DNA of 32,949 nucleotides, taken from NCBI GenBank assembly GCA_002867475.1, contig PKTL01000083.1, forward strand, positions 1-32,949. Reading direction: 5' to 3'. The translations under genes and the position numbers were made by a program. The DNA is from Candidatus Woesearchaeota archaeon. GTDB taxonomy: Archaea > Nanobdellota > Nanobdellia > Woesearchaeales > BM511. Positions 1 to 21,319 of the stretch are shown one piece after another (within the stretch, counting starts at the first letter, position 1; each line of letters begins with the position of its first letter). A model generated the notes under the pieces. The model saw nothing but the letters and a program-made list of their open reading frames with translations. It was not told where the DNA came from and made no database searches.

Positions 1-3000
1 ACAAGAAATCCAAACTCACATTAAAAACCGCGACATCCAACAAAGGACTACTAACCACGCTAACATTAGTCAAAAAAGCCTCACTAACAACACTACTAAT
101 AGAATTTATTGTTGCGGGATTAAATATTTGAAAGATTTCTGAATCAGTATTTGAAGTAATTACTATTGAAGGGTTGTTAGGTATTTCAACGAGTTGTATT
201 GTTACATTGTAATTTCCAGTAGGAGTATCTAAACCTATATCTATATCTTTGGTGCAAACACCATTAATTATTTCTACTAATTCATCAAATATTATTGTTT
301 GATTTAAGTCAGTTATTAGCACATCACAGAATATCCAACTGGATGTCCCTAAATTTGTTATTGTTCCTTCTTCATTTTTTATTTCTGCTTTTATTTCTAT
401 TGTTGATTCTATTTTTGGATATTTTTCTTCTACTGTTATTTCTGGGTGTAAAAGTGTTAATAAAGTTCTGTTTGTATTAATAATTTTTTGATTATAGAAA
501 TAGTTTGATTGAGATTCTATAGTTATATTTACTAATCCTTCATATGTCGGAGGTATTTCATAATAACAGTGCCCTGTAGAGTTTATTAAAGTTATGTGTT
601 CTATGTTTTCATTTATTGTGAATTGGCAGATTACTGAATCTGTTATTACTTGGTTTGTTCTTGAATTGTTTAATTGTACCAGTATCAGGTTTGTTCCACT
701 TGTATCATATTGATTTATGGTTACATTATTTTTTTGTATGTTACTCATTGATTGAATGGTTGTGTTTGTTATATGTAAACAAGTTGATCCATTAGTATCG
801 CAATATTCAAATTTATATTTGTTTGCCCCTGCAAGCTGTTTTGGTAAGGTTACATTTATTGTCAAGAATTCATCTTGAGTGGTTATGAAATCTATTAGAT
901 TTATCCATTCTAAAATTAGTTCATCATATATCCAGATTCTTGCAGAAAGATTATCATTATCAGGTTCTATTATATTTATAGTAAAATTTCTTTGTGTTCC
1001 CCATTGAGCATATTCTGGAGAATAAGTTGTGTTTAATAGTATTGGCGGCGCATTAGGACTACTTGTTATTTTATATCTTATCCCCCCATATTGTTTAGAA
1101 CTGTGTGTTAATAAGGGTTGCACCAATTTCAAATATTCAGTTACATTGTCTGAATCTGTGTCTTTTATACATGCATAGAATTCATGATTTCCCAAGGTTG
1201 TTTTATTTAATGAAGGGTTTGCTGCGTCACAGTCAGAAATCTCACTCAGGTTTAATTCATAGTAGGTTCCGTTCTTGTACCAATCGACACTTAACTCTAT
1301 ATTTTTTTTATGGTTTGAATCAAGAGTTAGGTTAAATGTCACATTAGTTATTGTTTCGTTTATGAATTGGTCTTTAAGCGACACAGTTATGTTTGTTATG
1401 TATTCTTGAGGTTCTTGGTAAGAAGTTGAATTTATTTCAACTATTTTTATGGTTTGATCATTATACCAAATATAATCTGGTTGTTTTAGATAATAAGTAT
1501 TTATGAAATAGTCTTGTGCGCATCCAGATGTTGTTCCATCTTCTCTAGTATACCCCAGATATGCTGCTCCACTTGATGCTGTGCAGGTTTCTTTATTGAA
1601 ATAGTATTCTTCGCTTCCAAGTAAAAATGATGATGCATTAACTATATTGTACACATATATGGGGATTATAGGGATCGTGTTATAGATTATTTTTAAGGCT
1701 TGATATTCTATCATGTCATCAGAATTTAAGTTATCAGTTACAGCCAATGATTGTATATTATTTTCTAAGGATATATTTATTGGATAAGTAAATTCTAGGT
1801 TTAATTCTTTTATATTTATGTAGTAATCTGTGTAGCTGCTTGTAAAGTTTATTGGAAAAATACAGAAATTAAGATAACAATTGTCAACTATTTGTTGTAG
1901 TGGTATGATATTGAGACTTATGTCTTTTGACTCATTTAGTTGTGTTGATAAAGAGTATAAAATTGAATTATTCAAGGAAATATTTAGACTGTCTGTCACA
2001 TAGCTACTATATTGCTTTATGCTTTCTGTGTCCAAGATCAGTATTTCTTCTTGAGGTGTTTGATCAATGTTTTCGATTAAGGTTTTTTCGTTTGTTTCGT
2101 CTTCGTTTGGTATTTCTGTTTTTATATTATAATATTTGTCTAGGATTGAAAGCTTATCACTCTCCAATATAAGTAATTCATTATTTTCTGATGATGCAAT
2201 ATCTAATATCTCTGATGAGAAAGTTTTTTCAAGTTGACAAGTGGAACCTATACAAGAATATAATTGACCTGTTCTTGTTCCAATGAGTATTGTATTTATA
2301 GATTCTAAGGTTGTCAACAAAACACTTCTTCCAGAATAAGGATAAGTGTAGATTAAAGATCCTGTTGAATTGTATAGTTCAGTTTTATATCTTAAACCTA
2401 TCAATATTTCATAACCATCATAGATAGTCGTATATTCTTTTGTTGATACATCATAGATCTGTTGTGAAAAGGTTATAGGGAATCCGGTTAAGTTTGAAAA
2501 ATCTGAGGTGAATGAATGAATTTTATTATCAGTGTCATATAATAATAAGTCATCTTCATCTGTGTTGTATAAGAGATATATTCTACTCATCAAATTTCCA
2601 TTAATATCTTGTATTGATCCATCATACCATGTTGAATTACCTGTTGTGGCATGATCTACTAATAAATTATAATAACTTGTGCTGTTACAATCCACACATG
2701 TATAATTTATAGTGTTATATTCATTTATATCATTACAATTTACTTCTGTGTCTATCCATTGGTATCTTAGGCTCGTATTTGTCTTTATCTCTACTTTGAA
2801 ATCTTTATTATTATAATTATATTCTTGTGAATTAAGAACATATGAAGTATATTCTTTATCAAGATATGAATAAGGTATGAACATAGTGTTTTCTTCATCA
2901 CATGAATCACAGGTTATCTTCAATGAAGGATTATCATTAAGTTCAGAACAGGATGTTGATAAGGTAATATTTTGGTAAGCTGTTTTATTTGCTACTTGAA

Positions 3001-5761
3001 TATATATAAAAGGTGTTTGATCTTCTTCTAGCATCAAATTATAGTAATTATCATTATCGCATGAATCACAAGTTATGTAGAATTCATTATTGCTTTCTAG
3101 ATCTGTACAATCCAGAGGGATGGTTATCTTAGTATGATTTAATGATGTGTTTGTATATATCTCGGTAATTGGTTTTTGATTTTGATCTAATATTAATCTA
3201 TAATTCTCGTTTGAATCGCAATCTTGACATGTTAGATTTATGAACTCATTTGTATTTAATTCTGTACAATTTATATCATTTATTTTTAGATTTGTGTATT
3301 CATACGAGTCTTCTTCAAAGAGAATTACATCATAGTCTCCAGTTAACTGACAACCTGAACTACAAGTAGGATTTGAGAAATAGAATGAGTTATTTAAGTT
3401 GCTTTCTTCATTTAATGGAAAACTGTAGTTTCCAGCCCCATCAAGGTTTATTTGCAAATTGTTATCGTCTGTTATTAAAGAACAATCTATTTCTGCTTTT
3501 ACAATATTTATAGTTCCGGCTTGACAGGAACTCATGTTTGTTAGGTTAAAGTTTGATAAATCTTCTGGGTCTCCATTTGCACTGCTTAATATAATATTTG
3601 ATTGTGGTGATGCTCCATTATAACATATTTTTGCTCCCACATAACAGTTTGCTCCACTAAACGTTCTATTTATCATATCTTGTAATGTTAAGATCATCAG
3701 ATCGCTATCTGTTAATAATTGGCTATAAGTAGAATCATAAGTTAAGTTTGTTGATGAATAAGGATATAATAAATTATTTGCTTTCTCTTTTATCTGGCTT
3801 TCATTTATATTTATTGTCTGTGATCCGACTGTGAATTGAAGCGAGTTACTTGTTGAATTCTTATAATTTAATGCTAAACTTACTGAACAAGAAGTACCAT
3901 TTACTTTTTTTCCTTGGAGTATTTCTGTTATATTTATTGTTGTATAATCTTGCGTACAACCTACACAGAATATATTTGCGCCAGTATCTTGAGAAATCTT
4001 ATAGCTTTCTGATGCTTTTGCTGTTATTTTTTCTATAGGGATTTCTGTTTCTTTTGAATTTATTGTGAATGTAATATTTTTCTTTTGTCCTTGATAATTA
4101 AATGCAGATACTAATTCGCAAGTATTTTGTTCTGCTGATGTTGTGAAACCTGTGTTTTTTGAGTATAGGTTTGTTAATGAATCATTGATTCTTGTAAGAT
4201 TTTTTGCTATTTGTATCTTGCTTGGGTAATAATTAAAGATTATTTCGTTTGTTATGTTGCTTCCATTTATAATGAATGTCTCTATAGTCTGAGTTCCATT
4301 TTTTATCTGAACTTCTAAAGACATGTTTGAATTGTCACCTTGATATACTAAGGGTATTTCTATCTGGCAATCAATACCTTTTATGTGTGAAGGAAGAATC
4401 CCTTGAGTATTTACTAAAGCATATTCTTGGTTGCACCCTAGACACTCATAACCGACTATATCATTTTGGTTTTCCATATAGAAATCTTGCGAATCATATA
4501 GGATTAAGTTAGTATTCAAGTCATAGGTTGTTTGATTTAGTTTGAAGCTTATATTCTTTTTTTCTTCGTTATAGTTTATTGCGGATCGAATATAGCAAGT
4601 CATGTTTGATGTTGAAATAGATTCCATAGAATAATTTGTCAATAAGTAATAGGTTGAATTTTTTAATCTGAATATGCTTGTTGGATTGTCTGCATCTCTT
4701 TTTATTTCGGTTGTATAATCATTTTTTAGTTTGGAAGATATCACTCTTTGAAAATCTTCTATACCCTCATAAGAATTCAATAATGTTAGATTATAAGAAT
4801 AGATTTTTATGAATGTGTCTCCGGAAATTACTATTTCTTCATTTGGACTATTCAAGTCAAGTTCTGCGCATTCAATACTTTTTATTAGTAATCCTATATT
4901 TTTTTTAGGATATATCAATTGGTTTGAGGTTATGTTGACTTTTTTTAGATATGTTCCAGTTGATATTGCAAGTGTTATTTCATCAGAATCTTCACATAAA
5001 TCAAAATTATTATATATAGATTCTAGATAATCATAGGTTGATAAGGGGTTGTCGAAAGAAGGATTTATGTTCATGTCAAATTTTGTTATGGTTGAATCTT
5101 TTGGTAGTATTAGTGTTCTTTGCGCATTTCCGTTTGAGTCTATATAAATGTTTTCTCCATAGAAACCAGGGTCTGATTCAGTCAGAGGGTTGCATAATGA
5201 GTATGTTTCGTTAAAAAAGCAAAGGCTAAATGTGAATATTGGACTGCTTATGGATAAGGTATAAGGTTCTTTTTGCTCATAGTATTGCTTATTGTTTATT
5301 ATCTGACTGGTATTTAAGAAAGTCATATTTATCGCATAGTATCCTGGTTCGATTATATCAAATAGGATTCGTCCGCCTTCATCTATGCTCGTACCTAACC
5401 AGTTTGCTTTTAGAGCGTAGTCGTTTGCTAAAGAAGGTGTTTGTGTTATAAAGAAATAGTTTGACCATTCACCATTTTGTCTTGCGTAAAAGTTTTTGTA
5501 GGTTATCTTGTTGGGCGTTAGTATTTGAATTGTTAATTCTGAATCTTGATTTGTAGTATTAAACTGCACTTCCCATTCCTTTAGTTCAGGTGTCGCAGTT
5601 TGATTATAGGTTGATTTCTCTAATAGGAGTTTAATATCTTGGTTGAATGAAGAGGAGAATACAGGTATTAGAACTAAGATTATTAGAAATAGTATTAGTT
5701 TATTTGATACTTTATGGAAAGCATTTTTTTTTGATAAAAATTTAAATAAGTTAAACTTCAA
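1..5761 (-). CDS. Giant secreted/surface protein with cysteine repeats, 5' part (3' end outside window)
   Basis: The minus frame is read from a TTG at 5761; every stretch I translated is open and it runs off the left edge, giving at least 1,920 residues. The TTG follows a GGGGTG Shine-Dalgarno by 6 nt; an in-frame GTG at 5770 is the alternative. Residues ~22-35 form a hydrophobic signal segment ending near SSSF. The rest is Asn/Thr/Ser-rich with many N-x-S/T sequons, as expected for a glycosylated exterior protein. Two repeat families are visible: a 159-residue duplication (equivalent Cys at 389/548 and 440/599) and a shorter Cys repeat with first Cys at 760, 832, 885, 938 and 1009, most copies ending in a CxxC motif. 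Residues ~1050-1260 look like beta-propeller (FG-GAP/PQQ-like) blades, and ~1560 onward like Ig/PKD-type domains. Function unknown; adhesin, S-layer-associated or cell-contact roles are inference. Confidence 0.85.
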   Translation of the reverse strand, partial: MKFNLFKFLSKKNAFHKVSNKLILFLIILVLIPVFSSSFNQDIKLLLEKSTYNQTATPELKEWEVQFNTTNQDSELTIQILTPNKITYKNFYARQNGEWSNYFFITQTPSLANDYALKANWLGTSIDEGGRILFDIIEPGYYAINMTFLNTSQIINNKQYYEQKEPYTLSISSPIFTFSLCFFNETYSLCNPLTESDPGFYGENIYIDSNGNAQRTLILPKDSTITKFDMNINPSFDNPLSTYDYLESIYNNFDLCEDSDEITLAISTGTYLKKVNITSNQLIYPKKNIGLLIKSIECAELDLNSPNEEIVISGDTFIKIYSYNLTLLNSYEGIEDFQRVISSKLKNDYTTEIKRDADNPTSIFRLKNSTYYLLTNYSMESISTSNMTCYIRSAINYNEEKKNISFKLNQTTYDLNTNLILYDSQDFYMENQNDIVGYECLGCNQEYALVNTQGILPSHIKGIDCQIEIPLVYQGDNSNMSLEVQIKNGTQTIETFIINGSNITNEIIFNYYPSKIQIAKNLTRINDSLTNLYSKNTGFTTSAEQNTCELVSAFNYQGQKKNITFTINSKETEIPIEKITAKASESYKISQDTGANIFCVGCTQDYTTINITEILQGKKVNGTSCSVSLALNYKNSTSNSLQFTVGSQTININESQIKEKANNLLYPYSSTNLTYDSTYSQLLTDSDLMILTLQDMINRTFSGANCYVGAKICYNGASPQSNIILSSANGDPEDLSNFNLTNMSSCQAGTINIVKAEIDCSLITDDNNLQINLDGAGNYSFPLNEESNLNNSFYFSNPTCSSGCQLTGDYDVILFEEDSYEYTNLKINDINCTELNTNEFINLTCQDCDSNENYRLILDQNQKPITEIYTNTSLNHTKITIPLDCTDLESNNEFYITCDSCDNDNYYNLMLEEDQTPFIYIQVANKTAYQNITLSTSCSELNDNPSLKITCDSCDEENTMFIPYSYLDKEYTSYVLNSQEYNYNNKDFKVEIKTNTSLRYQWIDTEVNCNDINEYNTINYTCVDCNSTSYYNLLVDHATTGNSTWYDGSIQDINGNLMSRIYLLYNTDEDDLLLYDTDNKIHSFTSDFSNLTGFPITFSQQIYDVSTKEYTTIYDGYEILIGLRYKTELYNSTGSLIYTYPYSGRSVLLTTLESINTILIGTRTGQLYSCIGSTCQLEKTFSSEILDIASSENNELLILESDKLSILDKYYNIKTEIPNEDETNEKTLIENIDQTPQEEILILDTESIKQYSSYVTDSLNISLNNSILYSLSTQLNESKDISLNIIPLQQIVDNCYLNFCIFPINFTSSYTDYYINIKELNLEFTYPINISLENNIQSLAVTDNLNSDDMIEYQALKIIYNTIPIIPIYVYNIVNASSFLLGSEEYYFNKETCTASSGAAYLGYTREDGTTSGCAQDYFINTYYLKQPDYIWYNDQTIKIVEINSTSYQEPQEYITNITVSLKDQFINETITNVTFNLTLDSNHKKNIELSVDWYKNGTYYELNLSEISDCDAANPSLNKTTLGNHEFYACIKDTDSDNVTEYLKLVQPLLTHSSKQYGGIRYKITSSPNAPPILLNTTYSPEYAQWGTQRNFTINIIEPDNDNLSARIWIYDELILEWINLIDFITTQDEFLTINVTLPKQLAGANKYKFEYCDTNGSTCLHITNTTIQSMSNIQKNNVTINQYDTSGTNLILVQLNNSRTNQVITDSVICQFTINENIEHITLINSTGHCYYEIPPTYEGLVNITIESQSNYFYNQKIINTNRTLLTLLHPEITVEEKYPKIESTIEIKAEIKNEEGTITNLGTSSWIFCDVLITDLNQTIIFDELVEIINGVCTKDIDIGLDTPTGNYNVTIQLVEIPNNPSIVITSNTDSEIFQIFNPATINSISSVVSEAFLTNVSVVSSPLLDVAVFNVSLDFL

Positions 5762-5810
5762 ATTGTGCACCCCTATTTTAATACAACCTTAATAAAAATA
5801 CATCAATAAC

Positions 5811-13191: not shown

Positions 13192-13199
13192 TATTTAAA
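13192..13199 (-). promoter_or_regulatory. TATA box of the phosphomutase gene, overlapping an upstream stop codon
   Basis: The minus strand reads TTTAAATA and includes the TAA stop (13195-13197) of the 958-aa nuclease-like protein. It is centred 26-27 nt upstream of the phosphomutase ATG at 13169, the spacing for a leaderless archaeal transcript. Confidence 0.6.
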
Positions 13200-16071
13200 C
13201 CTTTCTAGATAGATCATATATTGTGTCTGCCACCGCTTGAATCCCACTTTCTGTACTTGGGAAATGATGCATTTCATCAAATAACCCTTCATTTAAGGTT
13301 CCTTGAGGTATAGCTTCACCAACAAAACTTTCAATAGCTTTATCTAAAATAAACTCATCAACCTCACCCTTTTTTGTATTATTTAAATATTCTTCAAATT
13401 CCCCATCATTTAAACATAGAGATTTATAGAAAATATTATCCTTACGATCTAATAATTGAATATACATTCTCCCTTCCTCAAAATTACCTTTTACATATTC
13501 TAAATTAATTTTACCTTTAGATATATATTCAGATAAATCACTTACACCTCTTGCAAAAAGAGTTTTGGCTTTTACCAACCTTTCAGTATAAAAATTTGAA
13601 ATAGATAATAAATTATCTATAGCTATTTCATTTTCCGATTCATCCTCCAACCAAGACCTATCCTTAAAAAGATACCTCATATAACTTCTATTTAGATTTA
13701 AAAGATTCATTTCATAGGTATTGAAATTTTCCTCAGGAGTTAAAGAATTATCATAATTATGAAAATTTTGTATAACTTCCTCCAAACTCCATATATTTTC
13801 ATAATCAAAATCTTCATTTTTTATTCTTTTTAATTTAGCATCATCAAGCACACAGGTTTTATTAGCAAAAAAACTAAATTGATCTTGAAAAGTTAAGATA
13901 CCATAAAATTCAGAAATCTTTTCGCTTATCGGACCTTCTTCTAACAAATTGTTGAAAAAATCAACAAAGTGAGGTGTTCTTTTAGTCATAGAATGCATAC
14001 AACCTAATATATCTCCACAATATACTGAAAAAGGATCATTAAAAAGACCCTCATGAATTTTAGAATAACCATCAATTATTTCTTTTGAAAAACTACTAAA
14101 ATCATCATAACCTTTCTTTTCATATTGTTCATCCATAAGTTTTTTTGCGTTTAAGATTGCCATATATGTAGGAATTGATTCTAATTTTTTCATAAAATCC
14201 ACTCTTAATTTTCCATGATAAAGTACAGATTTATCTATTAATTCCGTCTTCTCAGTAAAAGTTGAATTTGCACTTATAAAGCTCTTTTCTAAGTTATCCA
14301 TCAAATTTTCAGATTTGATTATAAATTCATTAAATACTGGAAGAATATTATTTTTAAACTCATTTTCCATTTGCTTTCTAGAAGGCGATTCCAAACCATT
14401 ACTTTGAAAATTTGTGTATAATCTTCTAAAAATTCCCTCTGTTTTTTTATCAGAGTTAAATATATTTTTTTCAACATTATTTAATCCCAACATTTCAATC
14501 AAAGAATCGTACATCTTCTCTTTTTCAGTGGTTTGTAAATTCAAAGCATCGAAATCTTGCAATGCTAATTTATATTCATCAAATTTTAACTGCACTGCAT
14601 TAGTTATACTATTTCTTAATTCAGTTAAACCATCAATATCTTTTTTCTTTTTTCCATTTCGTCTAACAGATTTCCCTTGTATGACATCACAAAGACATGA
14701 TGCAGTAAGATTTTTATCTTCGATTGATAAAGAATTAAGTTCACCTACCATTTCTTCAGTCAATTTTTTTTCTTCAGTTCCAAAATAAGTATTATACATT
14801 TGTAGCAAATTATTTTTTTGTGTTCTTTTTTCTGAATGGTTTGTCATTGAAACCTTAAGCATTCTTCCTCTTTTTTCTTCTTCGTAGATTTTTTCTTGAC
14901 CAAATAGATCATTCACCTCTTTACAGCTAATCCGTTTATTTTTTGAAACATAAGCATCATGGAAAAGTTCAATCTTTAATGAAACATCTTCACCATTCAG
15001 ATATATTCTTTCTAGTGCTTTCTTATAATTTTTCATCAAAGATACATCTTCTTTTTCTATCAATTCATTTATTTTATCAAGAATCCCAAAATAGACACTT
15101 TGGTTTAATTCAGAATTAGATCTTATTAGATCATCAAAAGTATCATAGCCGAATAATTCTTGAGTTCTTCCTTCAAGCTTCAATCTCATTTTTTCAATAT
15201 CCTTTTTAAGATTAATATTTTCTAAATAGTAAGCTAAAGTATCTTCATCTTTATTTCTTGCAATTATTCTTGCATCATATTTTTTTGTAATACCTTTTTT
15301 CTCCACATCATCTTTCATTGCTTGGATTTGTGGAAGTATAGATTCCAATATGTTATCAAGACCATTTTTCCATTTTGATTCAATTATTTCATTATCATTT
15401 ACTAGGAAATCAAGAATTACTTGTTTGTGTTCTTTCTCATCCAGACCTGTATAATCTACTTTTTTTAGAACTTGTGCTCGAACATTTTCTCTTCCATAAG
15501 TTTCGACCAAGTAGTTACCAACCAAAGCTTCATAGAGATTTCCTTTCACAAAATCAAGATTAGATCTATCTATACCTCTTTCTTTTTTATGCTGATCTAG
15601 CACCTTCAATATATCCGATTCTGATCTTTTTCTTAGTGAAGACTCATCTGGGAAAAATTTTCTTTCATAATGAATTGTATGCCAAGGCATCTCTCTAAAA
15701 TCTTCTCTTGCCTCACCTTCAGTGATAAATTTCATATCCACTAAGTGTTCAAGAGCACTTATCTCTTGACGTTCTCTTTCAGACAACATAGAATAATCTC
15801 TTTTATTGCTTGCTATTTCTTGAATACCTTCAAGCTCTTCACTTAAAAGATCCATAAAACTACCCCACTTATCTTCACCGAACAGATCTGAGACTTCTTC
15901 ATCAACAATATTGCATCCAGGCCTTAATATCTGGTTATATAATTGCAATGGTTCAGAACCTAGACTTTTTAGAGTTTTAATATTCACTTCTTCAATCCCT
16001 TGTTCAGAAAGATTATATGCAATATCAAAGATTACATCTTGTACTCTTTCTACATCCCATCTTCGACCCAT
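13195..16071 (-). CDS. Large unknown protein with PD-(D/E)XK nuclease-like domain (958 aa)
   Basis: No family recognised overall. Near the N terminus is a PD-(D/E)XK-type core: a helix with Glu181 in YEALVGNYL, then Asp221 in ILDFLV and Glu231-x-Lys233 in EIIESKW. The same signature (E..VG.YL, then DF.V, then E.KW) occurs in the 579-aa neighbour. The phrase EVxDLFGx(D/E)K occurs twice, at 59-68 and 385-394. The remaining ~700 residues are charged and appear mostly helical, without obvious membrane segments, Walker motifs or methyltransferase motifs. I chose ATG at 16071, 6 nt after AAGGTG; the GTG at 16080 falls in that Shine-Dalgarno. The upstream stop (16084-16086) is 12 nt before this ATG. 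DNA cleavage or nucleic-acid processing is inferred from the core only. Confidence 0.85.
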   Translation of the reverse strand: MGRRWDVERVQDVIFDIAYNLSEQGIEEVNIKTLKSLGSEPLQLYNQILRPGCNIVDEEVSDLFGEDKWGSFMDLLSEELEGIQEIASNKRDYSMLSERERQEISALEHLVDMKFITEGEAREDFREMPWHTIHYERKFFPDESSLRKRSESDILKVLDQHKKERGIDRSNLDFVKGNLYEALVGNYLVETYGRENVRAQVLKKVDYTGLDEKEHKQVILDFLVNDNEIIESKWKNGLDNILESILPQIQAMKDDVEKKGITKKYDARIIARNKDEDTLAYYLENINLKKDIEKMRLKLEGRTQELFGYDTFDDLIRSNSELNQSVYFGILDKINELIEKEDVSLMKNYKKALERIYLNGEDVSLKIELFHDAYVSKNKRISCKEVNDLFGQEKIYEEEKRGRMLKVSMTNHSEKRTQKNNLLQMYNTYFGTEEKKLTEEMVGELNSLSIEDKNLTASCLCDVIQGKSVRRNGKKKKDIDGLTELRNSITNAVQLKFDEYKLALQDFDALNLQTTEKEKMYDSLIEMLGLNNVEKNIFNSDKKTEGIFRRLYTNFQSNGLESPSRKQMENEFKNNILPVFNEFIIKSENLMDNLEKSFISANSTFTEKTELIDKSVLYHGKLRVDFMKKLESIPTYMAILNAKKLMDEQYEKKGYDDFSSFSKEIIDGYSKIHEGLFNDPFSVYCGDILGCMHSMTKRTPHFVDFFNNLLEEGPISEKISEFYGILTFQDQFSFFANKTCVLDDAKLKRIKNEDFDYENIWSLEEVIQNFHNYDNSLTPEENFNTYEMNLLNLNRSYMRYLFKDRSWLEDESENEIAIDNLLSISNFYTERLVKAKTLFARGVSDLSEYISKGKINLEYVKGNFEEGRMYIQLLDRKDNIFYKSLCLNDGEFEEYLNNTKKGEVDEFILDKAIESFVGEAIPQGTLNEGLFDEMHHFPSTESGIQAVADTIYDLSRKV

Positions 16072-16083
16072 CTTAAACACCTT

Positions 16084-17823
16084 TTAGCAATTAACCCCAT
16101 GATATCCAACATATTCCATCGTATCACTATATGCTTCTTGAGAAAGTGCAAGAATATCAACTGCTTGTTCAAGACTTTCTATTTTAGTAGCATCTTCATG
16201 TCCATTTGTTGAAACCCTTCTACTATTTGGCATGATAAATAAAGGATGTATTAATTCATCCACATCTTCCACCATATCTTCAACTCTTACGCCTTCTTTC
16301 GCATATTCTAATAATACTGCTAGATTTCTATCAAGCTCGTTTTTGAATCCTAAATCTCCAAAATTATATGTTGCTTCATATTTTTCTGATTCTTCTCTAG
16401 CCAATTGTGAAGGACTTATGAAAGCCCGATATAATTCTCCTTCATGTTCAAAATGTGCTTCTAGTGTTTGAAAGGTTGAGCGAGTATTTTCTTTCAAGTA
16501 ATTTGATAGTTCTTCTCTTTTTACCTCTTTTAATTCTTGAAGTTTTTGAGAAATATACTCTTTTCTTTCTTCTCCATTTTTATGATTTGCATCTTCAACA
16601 ACACCATAGAAATAATCTCTTATAGCTATCATTAATTTTGAGTCATTTTGATTTTCTAAAAGAATATTTGAAATATGGTCTAACGAAGATGAGATTTCAG
16701 CTCCTTTGTAAAGATCTTCAAATTTGGCGGTTTCTACACCTACTTGTACTTGGTCTTCGAGTCTTACAACTTCATACAACTTATCAGTTAGGCTTGTGTG
16801 TTTTTGATGGGTTTCTTCAATATTTTCTTTAGCGTTTCCCCATTTGACTTCTACAAATTTTTCTCCAACCTTAAAATCCACTCTTGTTCCAAAATGATTA
16901 TCTGTAACATTTAAACAATATTGTGGTATTATTAATTCTTCAGGATTAGTATAAGATAAGTATAATCCTACAACTTGTTCGAATGCTTCACCTTTGTCAA
17001 ACACTGCAGATTTTTTCCCTTGAAAAGTTTCTGATATTTCTTTGCTTGAATTATTTCTTTTTGAAGCTGGTTTTGGTTTACCTTTTCTTCTAAATTGTTC
17101 AGGAATATTAGTTGAAGCATAACTTCTAAATGATTCAGGAAAAATTCCCATTTCATTTATAGCTTCTTGAATTGCTCCTTTAGAATTAGTAACGCCTAAA
17201 AAAATTGATAATGTTTTAGATTGAGATATCTCATCAAGACTGCTATAATTCTCACTAATAAACTTTATGAAATTAGCCTCAGCCAATTCATCACCAACAA
17301 TATCCTTATTAATATAAAAAGAGCTTTGAGAACCTGGTTTGAATATGGATTGTCCTTCTTGAAGCTCACCACTTAAAACACCATATTGTACAAAAACTTT
17401 TGCTAAATCCGACTTATTACTAATGTTTTCTCCAGATAATTCACTTGCAAAAGCCAATAATTGATTGTGATTAGGTAAATTATCCAAATTAGTATATTCT
17501 GAAGAATTTAAGGTTATATGTTTTCGATAGTTTTCAATTGAAATATCTCTTCCTACAATTTCAGGTCTTAACAATCTAGACATTTGTCTTTTACTTCCAG
17601 TTCTTACTAGCCTCCCATCATAATTTTCAGGATTAATATAACCTTGTTGTACTAATGCCCTTAGAATATCATCAGTTTTTCTAGGAACTTCTAAAAAGTC
17701 AGCGATACCTTTCTCATAATGAATCAAATCCAAATTATTATTGAATTTTTTTGATAAAATTTCAACTAATTCTTCTTCAGAATTAATCTTATCAACTCTT
17801 TTCAAAATTGAGTCTAAGGACAT
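16084..17823 (-). CDS. Unknown protein with HTH-like repeats and PD-(D/E)XK nuclease-like domain (579 aa)
   Basis: The central region has a PD-(D/E)XK core: Glu282 in FEQVVGLYL, Asp316 in RVDFKVG, and Glu325-x-Lys327 in FVEVKWG, followed by a helix rich in Glu and His. Before it, three short helix-turn-helix-like segments recur (about 39-62, 122-150 and 203-230), each of the pattern FLxV, eight or so residues, Ix(2)Ax(4)G. A basic linker (~245-262) separates them from the core. The C-terminal ~250 residues are acidic and unrecognised. ATG at 17823 is chosen because GGAGGG precedes it by 7 nt; the in-frame GTG at 17838 overlaps that site. Only 2 nt separate it from the stop of the 349-aa gene. 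A DNA-binding nuclease or nuclease-derived processing factor is plausible but not shown. Confidence 0.85.
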   Translation of the reverse strand: MSLDSILKRVDKINSEEELVEILSKKFNNNLDLIHYEKGIADFLEVPRKTDDILRALVQQGYINPENYDGRLVRTGSKRQMSRLLRPEIVGRDISIENYRKHITLNSSEYTNLDNLPNHNQLLAFASELSGENISNKSDLAKVFVQYGVLSGELQEGQSIFKPGSQSSFYINKDIVGDELAEANFIKFISENYSSLDEISQSKTLSIFLGVTNSKGAIQEAINEMGIFPESFRSYASTNIPEQFRRKGKPKPASKRNNSSKEISETFQGKKSAVFDKGEAFEQVVGLYLSYTNPEELIIPQYCLNVTDNHFGTRVDFKVGEKFVEVKWGNAKENIEETHQKHTSLTDKLYEVVRLEDQVQVGVETAKFEDLYKGAEISSSLDHISNILLENQNDSKLMIAIRDYFYGVVEDANHKNGEERKEYISQKLQELKEVKREELSNYLKENTRSTFQTLEAHFEHEGELYRAFISPSQLAREESEKYEATYNFGDLGFKNELDRNLAVLLEYAKEGVRVEDMVEDVDELIHPLFIMPNSRRVSTNGHEDATKIESLEQAVDILALSQEAYSDTMEYVGYHGVNC

Positions 17824-17825
17824 CG

Positions 17826-18875
17826 TCAAACCCTCCACTGATAATCTCTTACTTTTGTTCCTTTTGCAAAAAATGTTGGGTGGTCTTCTGGTTTTTCTGA
17901 TCCTTGAGTCTTATACACTAATCCCCAAAGAAGTATCTCTTTTTCTGCTAGATTTAAAGGTCTTGTTTTGCCATTATCTTTTATCAACACGTTATTGTTC
18001 AGTTTCTCATAGAAATCCACTGTTCTTTGTGTTGGTATTGGAATCTGACTTTGTTCTAAAGGTATAATATTTCCTTGTCTAGAGTACATATCTATTACTG
18101 CTAGGTATGCTGCCACATCATGCGAATCTAAGGTTACTAGGTTTCTTTCACCCTCTGCCTGCGGGTGCTTGAATCTGATTATTCCTCTTTTGCTGTCGCA
18201 TTCGTGGGTTGAGTTGAATGAATATGATATTTTTTGCTTGTTTTCATTATCAATTACAGGAACTGAGGTTAGTTTGAACTTGTATCTTCCAGTTTTATGT
18301 CGAGATGGCATTTTTACATCAATCTCAGCACCATCCATTTCGACACCTCTTGCATCATCGTAAGGGAATAATTCTATTATTGATTTGAAATGTTTATCCT
18401 GAAAATAGTTGCTTATGCTAAATGGTTCATCTTCATCCCTATGTTTCAAACAAGCATATGCGTAAAGCTTCGCACCTTCAAGAGATTCAATAAGAGGGAT
18501 TTTTCTTGGTCTTAAGTCATCGCCGCTAAACGGCGTAAAAACTAGACCATTATATGCTTTGGCGTCGATTGATTCCATTGCTTCAAATCTTGCGTCAACT
18601 GGTCTAAAACTTGCAATTTCTTCGAGCGTTGGACTTTTTATATGGACTTCACCACCATATTTCCTGAATTCCCTTGATGGCGAGAATCCTTTTCCAAACT
18701 TCTTTTTTCTAACATTTTGTTTTGGAATAAGTTGAGTCTCAAGTATTACTGCTTCATCTAATTCTATTGCTTCTATCTCATGAACGTATTCGTCTGAAAT
18801 ATTTTTTACAGTGGAGAATTTTTTTATTTGACCAGGACTTCTTTCCTTGAAAAATGTTTTCTTATCAATAGACAT
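17826..18875 (-). CDS. Unknown protein, first gene of the nuclease-like cassette (349 aa)
   Basis: I do not recognise this protein. It has no signal peptide or membrane helix. The N-terminal ~70 residues are mixed-charge and end in a very basic patch (KKKFGKGFSPSREFRKYGG, ~58-76). A middle section contains EIDVKMPSRHKTGRYKFKL (~192-210) and later HECDSKRGIIRFKHPQ (~232-247), which look like beta-strand segments rich in Arg/Lys/His and could contact nucleic acid. The start ATG follows CAGTGAT by 5-6 nt. A TATA element at 18909-18916 makes it the promoter-proximal gene. Its end carries the Shine-Dalgarno of the 579-aa gene, so the proteins are probably made together. Confidence 0.82.
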   Translation of the reverse strand: MSIDKKTFFKERSPGQIKKFSTVKNISDEYVHEIEAIELDEAVILETQLIPKQNVRKKKFGKGFSPSREFRKYGGEVHIKSPTLEEIASFRPVDARFEAMESIDAKAYNGLVFTPFSGDDLRPRKIPLIESLEGAKLYAYACLKHRDEDEPFSISNYFQDKHFKSIIELFPYDDARGVEMDGAEIDVKMPSRHKTGRYKFKLTSVPVIDNENKQKISYSFNSTHECDSKRGIIRFKHPQAEGERNLVTLDSHDVAAYLAVIDMYSRQGNIIPLEQSQIPIPTQRTVDFYEKLNNNVLIKDNGKTRPLNLAEKEILLWGLVYKTQGSEKPEDHPTFFAKGTKVRDYQWRV

Positions 18876-18908: not shown

Positions 18909-18916
18909 TATTTAAA
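18909..18916 (-). promoter_or_regulatory. Promoter (TATA box) of the three-gene cassette
   Basis: The minus strand reads TTTAAATA, preceded by an A-rich stretch that could serve as BRE. It is centred about 37 nt before the ATG at 18875, so transcription would start near 18886 and give an ~11-nt leader just long enough to hold the GTGAT Shine-Dalgarno. No other TATA/BRE arrangement with this spacing is evident inside the cassette. Confidence 0.55.
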
Positions 18917-18946
18917 TTTTTCTATTTTTATAGAGAATAATCAGAT

Positions 18947-20458
18947 TCAAATCAAGCTTTTCCCAGTCATCTCTTTTGGCTGCTCAATTTTCAGTAGCTT
19001 CAATAATGTTGGTGCAACGTCAGCTAAACCACCACTTCGAATCTTCCTGTACCTTGTACCCACAAGACAGCATGGAACCTTATTTAATGTGTGTGAAGTA
19101 CAAGGAGAACCATCTTTTTGGATCATCATTTCAGCATTTCCATGATCTGCAATAATAAGTGCAGAACCGCCAAAATTAAGTGTTTTTGAAACGACTTTTC
19201 CAACACATTTATCGACTGTTTCGACTGCTTTAATGGTTGGTTTAATTTTTCCAGTATGGCCTACCATGTCACAGTTTGCAAAATTGACAACTATCAAGTC
19301 ATGTTTTTGCTTGTTCATCTCTTTAAGAAGTGAATCAGTAATCTCATAAGCACTCATCTCAGGCTTCAAGTCATATGTTGCGACTTTTGGGCTTGGAATA
19401 AGTACTCTATCTTCTCCAGCGTAAGGTTTTTCTATCTCGTCGTTAAAGAAGTATGTTACATGCGCATATTTTTCTGTTTCAGCTATTCGAAGTTGTGTTT
19501 TCTTGTTATCTTTTAACACCCTTGCTAAAACATTTTTTACATTTGTTCTTTCATATGCAACTGGAGAATCAATTTCAGCATAATATCTTGTCATAGCGAC
19601 AAAATTTATGTTCCGTCTGACTACATTGAATCCTCTAAATTTTGGATCTATCAGGCTTTGAGTTATCTGCCTTGCCCTGTCAGGTCTGTAATTGAAGAAT
19701 ATCAAGCTATCATCCTTATCGACTTTAGTAAAATCTGTTGTCATCCTTGGCTTGATAAACTCATCAAATTCTTTATCCTTATATGCTTGTTTTACTGCTT
19801 CATAGATATTCTTGAATTTTTTCTTGTCAGATTTTTCTTTTATCAAAAGATCGTAGAAAAGTTTTGTCCGATCCCATCTTTTGTCTCTATCCATCGCATA
19901 ATATCTTCCTGTAATGCTAGCGACCTTTGCAGGATATTTCTCAATTATTTTCAATAATTCATCAATATATTTCTTGACACTTTTTGGAGGCGTGTCACGA
20001 CCATCACTTATTATATGTATATAAGGTGTAACTTCATATCTGCTGCATAGTTCCACCAATGCAAAAAGGTGATTTTGATGAGCATGAACTCCTTGGTCTT
20101 GAAGCAAACCCATCAAATGCAAGTTTTTCTTGTTTTTTTTCGCATTTTTTATTGCTTCAAGAAAAGAATGATTATAAAAAAATTCATCATTTTCGATTGA
20201 ATTATTTATCTTTACCTGATCTTGGTATATTATTCTCCCACTTCCAATGGTTAAATGTCCTACTTCGCTTGAGCCTTGAAAGCCTTTTGGAAGACCGACT
20301 GCTTCCCCGCTTGCACCCAGCTTTGACTTTGGATATTTTCTAAAAAGTTTGTCAATATTTGGAGTTTTTGCTAATTTTATAGCGTTTCCCCTACGCCAGA
20401 AACGAAGCCCAAACCCATCCATTATTACTAATACCAACGGTTTTTTCCCATCACCCAT
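18947..20458 (-). CDS. gpmI: 2,3-bisphosphoglycerate-independent phosphoglycerate mutase
   Basis: A 503-residue alkaline-phosphatase-superfamily mutase of the long bacterial-type iPGM form. Metal-binding MDGFG occurs at 13-17 (Asp14) and the catalytic serine is Ser64 in GSSEVGHLTIGSGR. Later metal ligands include the VVNFANCDMVGH and IIADHGNAE stretches. It interconverts 3- and 2-phosphoglycerate; enolase, the next enzyme, is encoded about 1.7 kb upstream on the same strand. Many archaea use the shorter ApgM type instead, so this form suggests ancient transfer or a DPANN-typical choice. The ATG at 20458 lies 26-27 nt from a TATA box centred at ~20484, consistent with a leaderless mRNA. Confidence 0.95.
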   Translation of the reverse strand: MGDGKKPLVLVIMDGFGLRFWRRGNAIKLAKTPNIDKLFRKYPKSKLGASGEAVGLPKGFQGSSEVGHLTIGSGRIIYQDQVKINNSIENDEFFYNHSFLEAIKNAKKNKKNLHLMGLLQDQGVHAHQNHLFALVELCSRYEVTPYIHIISDGRDTPPKSVKKYIDELLKIIEKYPAKVASITGRYYAMDRDKRWDRTKLFYDLLIKEKSDKKKFKNIYEAVKQAYKDKEFDEFIKPRMTTDFTKVDKDDSLIFFNYRPDRARQITQSLIDPKFRGFNVVRRNINFVAMTRYYAEIDSPVAYERTNVKNVLARVLKDNKKTQLRIAETEKYAHVTYFFNDEIEKPYAGEDRVLIPSPKVATYDLKPEMSAYEITDSLLKEMNKQKHDLIVVNFANCDMVGHTGKIKPTIKAVETVDKCVGKVVSKTLNFGGSALIIADHGNAEMMIQKDGSPCTSHTLNKVPCCLVGTRYRKIRSGGLADVAPTLLKLLKIEQPKEMTGKSLI

Positions 20459-20512: not shown

Positions 20513-21319
20513 TTGTTAGTTAATTATATAAATCATGAACTATTCCAAAAAAAGATGAAAGAAATACAATATGATAATAGAGACATAATATCTTTTTGCA
20601 TATCAACAGGAGATGATAATTCCATACATGACCCTCAATATATGGAACCAAAAAGTAAAAGAGTGATTGTTCCTGGAATGCTTACATTAACAGACATTTT
20701 GAATAATTTCCCAACCGATCTTAAAAAAACAAGATCAATACTTGCTAATTTTGGATACGCAGTTAGTGAAGGAGACATCATAAGATTTGATGATGAAGAC
20801 ATATCAGATGTTGAAAAAAGAATCATTACAAAAGCTCATGATAATCCTAAAAAAGAGGACACCCACATATTTATGAATCGAGAAATACCAGAAATAGAAT
20901 ATTTAGGTGAAACCCATAAAAAAATCACATTTTCCCCACACCAAGCTGAATTATTTGCTAAAGTTCTTGGCACAAACATAACTAAAGAATCAAAGTTCCT
21001 ATATAGTCTTGCACTTTCATCTAGGGCTTTATTAGAATCGAAAGAAGATCTGAAACTATCAGATGAAAAAAAATTATCAGATATATTAGGTAATAAATTG
21101 CCTGCATATCAATCGATTTCTATTAACCTACCTAAAGTTTTTCCAGATATACATTTAGGAAAACAACTTAATTATTATATGTCAGTAAGTAGTGAAGATG
21201 AGAAACATTTCCAGTTTGATATCCAATGCATCCAAGGCTTGAAAGAGATATATAATGGAAGATACGAACTTTTAGCTGTTCCTGAGAAATTGGTTATGAG
21301 AATGGCAAGAGATCTATAA
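20513..21319 (+). CDS. Unknown cytoplasmic protein (268 aa)
   Basis: Not recognised. No signal peptide, membrane helix or catalytic motif is evident. Residues ~58-83 (LTLTDILNN through ILANFGYAV) form an HTH-like segment resembling the repeated segments of the 579-aa protein in the cassette, and ~140-200 is another helical part with LSDILGNKLP. The TTG at 20513 sits ~28 nt after a TATA box and would be leaderless. The ATG at 20555 (codon 15) is a credible alternative start with no strong Shine-Dalgarno. The gene is divergent from gpmI and its end overlaps the convergent 78-aa gene by 6 bp. Confidence 0.78.
   Translation: MLVNYINHELFQKKMKEIQYDNRDIISFCISTGDDNSIHDPQYMEPKSKRVIVPGMLTLTDILNNFPTDLKKTRSILANFGYAVSEGDIIRFDDEDISDVEKRIITKAHDNPKKEDTHIFMNREIPEIEYLGETHKKITFSPHQAELFAKVLGTNITKESKFLYSLALSSRALLESKEDLKLSDEKKLSDILGNKLPAYQSISINLPKVFPDIHLGKQLNYYMSVSSEDEKHFQFDIQCIQGLKEIYNGRYELLAVPEKLVMRMARDL

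Follow-up and report, generated by a model that had tools for sequence, protein, structure and literature searches.

In the genome of a Candidatus Woesearchaeota archaeon, three genes of no named family lie between those for phosphoglycerate mutase (PGM) and phosphomannomutase (PMM), which raises the question of what their products do and whether they work together. An earlier note on this DNA had interpreted them as one functional unit, for example in DNA processing, in defence or as the remnant of a mobile element. We analysed the locus in the window, that is, the whole stretch of 32,949 nucleotides (contig PKTL01000083.1), and in related archaeal genomes.

Layout of the three-gene locus

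The genes, called P1, P2 and P3 here, and the putative transcription signals around them are located as follows.

17826..18875, minus strand: P1, open reading frame of 349 aa; unnamed archaeal family with a SWIM-type zinc-finger signature
16084..17823, minus strand: P2, open reading frame from ATG, 579 aa; putative N-terminal helical repeats followed by a PD-(D/E)XK-type core
13195..16071, minus strand: P3, open reading frame from ATG, 958 aa; N-terminal third paralogous to P2, remainder without assignment
18909..18916, minus strand: TATA-like box TTTAAATA, from sequence, 34-41 nt 5' of the P1 ATG
13192..13199, minus strand: TATA-like box TTTAAATA, from sequence, over the P3 stop and 23-30 nt 5' of the PMM gene

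The open reading frames bear out the earlier description of three co-directional genes encoding 349, 579 and 958 residues, with stop-to-start gaps of 2 nt between P1 and P2 (TGA-CG-ATG) and 12 nt between P2 and P3. Since P2 and P3 are preceded by SD-like sequences (GGAGGG and AAGGTG, respectively), P1 by a TATA-like box and the PMM gene by a second one, the trio looks like a single transcription unit, whose end is likely marked by the box over the P3 stop. The one clear promoter of the earlier description stood in part: the box is present 5' of P1, but the TTTAAATA octamer occurs 10 times in the window when 12 would be expected by chance, and this lack of enrichment leaves it a plausible, unproven promoter on the evidence of the layout. 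Similarly, the PGM and PMM genes, which lie on the same strand as the trio, had been correctly identified, but the view of an insertion-like block between them was not sustained. PGM-PMM adjacency was not found in the family members tested (G001 and G003) and, because the two genes lie apart in these relatives, the flanks define no empty insertion site. No tRNA, convincing terminal repeats, integrase or transposase was found at the trio. As the earlier note had anticipated for end-to-end family matches, searches of Pfam, NCBIfam, PHROGs, PADLOC and PDB sequences gave no meaningful match for P1, P2 or P3.

An exact 16-nt inverted repeat, TTGAATCTGATTATTC, was observed at 18169-18184 (inside P1) and 18935-18950 (across the end of the PGM gene), the two arms being 750 nt apart. 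A second, imperfect pair has the same spacing.

P2 and P3 are paralogues with a nuclease-like core

The nuclease-like cores that had been noticed in two of the proteins were located by motif and by the alignment of P2 with P3.

16843..16992, minus strand: P2 nuclease-like core, E282, D316, E325-x-K327
15373..15543, minus strand: P3 nuclease-like core, E181, D221, E231-x-K233

The order E..D..ExK is typical of PD-(D/E)XK nucleases. The bare motif is weak, as it arises in 8% of shuffled P2 and 18% of shuffled P3 sequences. The BLASTP alignment of both proteins (26% identity over 206 aa, E of 4e-5) spans E..D..ExK, with a shuffle-test p of about 2.5e-5, and refines the initial observation: judged by this alignment, P2 and P3 are paralogues. 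Foldseek, which had been proposed as a check, was run on models of P1 and of the P2 core and returned no known fold. Specifically, the P2 core model, built from two sequences, showed the helix-strand-strand-strand-helix-strand order expected of a PD-(D/E)XK core, but at a pLDDT of 47 and with no fold match, so that P2 and P3 are called nuclease-like from their motif and homology. Diverged repeats are present at the N-terminus of P2 (repeat 1 against repeat 3, p of about 1.5e-4, the segments having been selected by eye), which by eye appear helical and HTH-like.

Single-sequence searches over 353 genomes of the order found no credible homologue of P2 or P3, and there was none for either in viral contigs (IMG/VR). 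Weak matches from 145 and 353 genomes were discarded as spurious, being by eye ribonucleotide reductase, A/V-type ATPase, IleRS and an intein in a CDC48-like ATPase. One distant counterpart of P2 was found at locus L037 (family f10), where a 124-aa ORF and then a 505-aa P2-like protein (L037:186-1700, minus strand) come after a P1 homologue. The similarity of this protein to P2 is weak but supported (shuffle p of about 0.001) and co-linear, with the core aligned and the E..D..ExK order recognised by eye. A profile of the P2, P3 and L037 cores, searched over the 353 genomes, convincingly matched these three proteins only; the next matches were, by eye, a transcriptional regulator and an aminoacyl-tRNA synthetase. 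All three share the E..D..ExK order of the PD-(D/E)XK superfamily, preceded by a G..[FY]E..VG..L helix, but P2 and P3 match no named family of this superfamily in sequence or structure, and the fold is unconfirmed.

The L037 case bears most on the idea of the trio as a unit: a P1 and P2-like pairing was seen twice, in greatly diverged form, and P3 in the window only. Thus, the search for co-occurrence that had been suggested recovered P1 with a P2-like gene at L037, but the full trio in the window only, and the idea of the trio as a conserved set failed, P1 usually being found without either of the other two. The GC3 of P2 and P3 (0.154 and 0.183) is lower than that of P1 (0.266) and of nine other window genes (0.221-0.288), a difference that would fit a different or faster history of the nuclease pair.

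P1 represents a patchy archaeal family with a SWIM-type signature

A P1 profile built from 15 sequences matched 75 of the 353 genomes of the order, corresponding to 62 out of 220 genera. Among 138 genomes sampled across the phylum, 36 carried P1; every one belonged to the same class and none lay outside it. As far as searched, the P1 family is patchy and confined to one archaeal class, and IMG/VR viral contigs gave no P1 match. P1 is thus present in about a fifth to a quarter of the sampled genomes of an uncultured archaeal group, yet it has no family name. Phyletic patchiness, which the earlier note had proposed to examine, was found for P1, whose homologues mostly cluster by host family. In a tree of 58 homologues, the host-family label changed 13 times compared to 20.2 times after shuffling, and none of 200 shuffles was as low; families f10, f82 and f62 each had more than one clade.

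P1 recurs in particular chromosomal places, beside TruD at 16 loci, mostly in family f62, and beside PRC-barrel/TraB/TrmB genes at up to 15 loci. Many P1 genes have no repair gene beside them and stand singly next to TruD, PRC-barrel or TrmB genes. Two P1 types that diverge from each other (L075/L083, L084, L088 and L091 versus L102-L107) were observed in family f62 at the same TruD-side place, as if P1 had been replaced in situ.

Comparison of 61 P1 homologues located the following motif.

18111..18206, minus strand: degenerate SWIM-type motif of P1, H224-x-C226 ... D250-x-H252-x-x-A255

Shu2/SWS1 proteins work with RAD51 paralogues in recombination. CxHxxA was present in 28 of the 61 homologues, 27 of which had [CH]xC 17-24 residues upstream, and the complete CxC...CxHxxA was found in 10 out of 61; 16 out of 61 had no xxHxxA at all. 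The window P1 retains the ligands H224, C226 and H252, and its fourth position is D250, a Cys to Asp change by which one zinc ligand is lost. CxC...CxHxxA is the form given for the SWIM domains of the recombination mediators Shu2/SWS1 (PMC6316741). About half of the P1 family thus shows this ligand pattern or its His variant, including HxxA after the last ligand. In contrast to Shu2/SWS1, the first Cys of the P1 family is often His, the window copy is one ligand short, no RadA paralogue was seen beside P1 and the rest of P1 matches no known fold. The Pfam SWIM model had no match in 20 P1 homologues at E up to 10. The AF2 model of P1 (pLDDT 75 and pTM 0.83, the zinc region being weak) found no match in a Foldseek search of PDB and viral structures. 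With the Pfam model silent and the fold search empty, P1 is SWIM-type by signature, its membership being unproven. The possibility that P1 itself is a PD-(D/E)XK nuclease was dropped, as it has no such motif.

Repair and nuclease genes lie downstream of some P1 homologues

At several loci, co-directional genes directly 3' of P1 homologues encode DNA enzymes: Ku, an ATP-ligase and uracil-DNA glycosylase (UDG) in one operon (L094), an ATP-ligase and PDDEXK_1 (L093) and an HNH gene (L107). An HhH-GPD glycosylase gene is the first gene 3' of the P1 homologue at L085 and the second at L080, a DEDD-type exonuclease (by eye) lies 3' of P1 at L039 and the P2-like PD-(D/E)XK protein at L037. Counted as distinct contexts, repair or nuclease partners supported by Pfam were found in 5 of 19 downstream contexts compared to 1 of 30 controls taken from the other immediate neighbours (Fisher p 0.027). 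These controls were hand-picked so as to leave out the recurrent TruD/PRC/TrmB genes, whose inclusion would add negatives only. When the by-eye cases were added and the window dropped, the counts were 7/18 versus 1/30 (p 0.003), the neighbour classes being partly assigned by eye, while counting RNase-type neighbours among the controls weakened the contrast to p 0.047. In addition, all HhH-GPD matches in the fetched neighbourhoods lay within three genes of P1 (6/279 near versus 0/570 far genes, p 0.001), at 5 loci from 4 families. The enrichment 3' of P1 is modest, and the families are not independent and may share inherited synteny. DNA processing, one of the roles put forward earlier, is a plausible one. 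Ku-ligase genes, as in NHEJ, and endonuclease III-like (HhH-GPD) genes lie directly 3' of P1 homologues or within three genes of them in other families, but they are absent from the window operon, and the relationship is one of association only.

Two further downstream contexts were observed. At L106:8303-10288, a tandem pair of orphan paralogues of 321 and 326 aa, beginning with MISIQESGLQTILETSE, comes after the P1 homologue; Pfam gave no match for the first of them. At L072:9586-10776, a gene 18 nt 3' of the P1 homologue encodes, by eye, an N-terminal HTH, roughly twelve short repeats that are nearly identical (GFENINEYQKHLAEK) and a C-terminal HNH-like segment.

Proposed function and alternative explanations

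We tentatively favour, with somewhat less than even confidence, the trio being a DNA-processing or repair operon that combines a SWIM-like P1 with interchangeable nucleases. P1, as a SWIM-like zinc-finger protein, would probably be a DNA binder or an adaptor at damaged or broken DNA. The paralogous P2 and P3 would probably be metal-dependent PD-(D/E)XK endonucleases that cut or trim the DNA engaged by P1, perhaps in a complex with it, and the helical N-terminal repeats seen in P2 may contact DNA. The partner enzymes would be exchangeable around a constant P1, as the P1 family is paired in related archaea with Ku-ligase, with a ligase and a RecB-like nuclease, with an endonuclease III-like glycosylase and with HNH.

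The main rival, which we regard as rather unlikely, is a conflict or defence module. Invading or foreign DNA would be recognised by P1 and then degraded by P2 and P3, and lineages would exchange the partner nucleases, as happens in other defence systems. Such a module would suit the patchy presence of P1, the lineage-dependent variation of its nuclease-type partners and the fast-evolving orphans P2 and P3, whose GC3 falls below the 0.22-0.29 of P1 and the flanking genes. However, PADLOC matched no described defence protein family, no methyltransferase, helicase or sensor ATPase lies beside the trio, the P1, P2 and P3 queries had no match in IMG/VR, and P1 mostly occurs singly, at recurring chromosomal positions such as next to TruD, and not in defence islands.

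A role in RNA metabolism, with P1 as an RNA factor and the nucleases acting on RNA, seems improbable. The neighbours TruD, AsnRS, RNase P p30 and Dus would then reflect this role, and indeed TruD adjoins P1 at many loci and AsnRS, Dus, NYN, HEPN and RNase P p30 genes are found among P1 neighbours. However, most of these RNA-type neighbours are clade-specific or lie on the other strand, so that shared regulation with P1 is not indicated, and the co-directional partners of known function are more often DNA enzymes. Least of all do we expect the remnant of an integrated mobile element, which would account for the low GC3 of the P2 and P3 orphans and the non-syntenic flanks, but is disfavoured by the want of integrase, transposase, tRNA and convincing terminal repeats, by the clustering of P1 by host family and by the viral contigs being free of matches.

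Returning to the DNA-processing reading, a broader version, to which we give a little less credence than to the defence module, would place P1, as the constant zinc-finger hub, at the centre of a modular system for DNA processing in the class, one that is as yet undescribed. Lineage-specific nucleases or repair enzymes would be swapped downstream of it, and the window version would be two tandem orphan PD-(D/E)XK nucleases. Should P1 prove to be a SWIM-type hub for repair or conflict whose nucleases can be swapped, it would offer a handle on how the tiny genomes of this archaeal group mend or defend their DNA. The link between SWIM and recombination, described for the eukaryotic Shu complexes, would then be extended to a new, directly testable setting.

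Other loci in the window and in a relative

The reading frame at 2-5770 of the window is cut off by the end of the contig and encodes at least 1923 aa of a very large Asn/Thr-rich protein, a probable surface protein that has a hydrophobic segment at its N-terminus. An orphan gene at 20513-21319 (plus strand, 268 aa) lies upstream of the PGM gene and has a sub-threshold MaoC-like Pfam match (E 0.09). In a relative, L137:5074-8136 encodes a CDC48-like AAA ATPase into which an intein appears, by eye, to have been inserted; the intein contains a homing-endonuclease region of the LAGLIDADG type, likewise recognised by eye.
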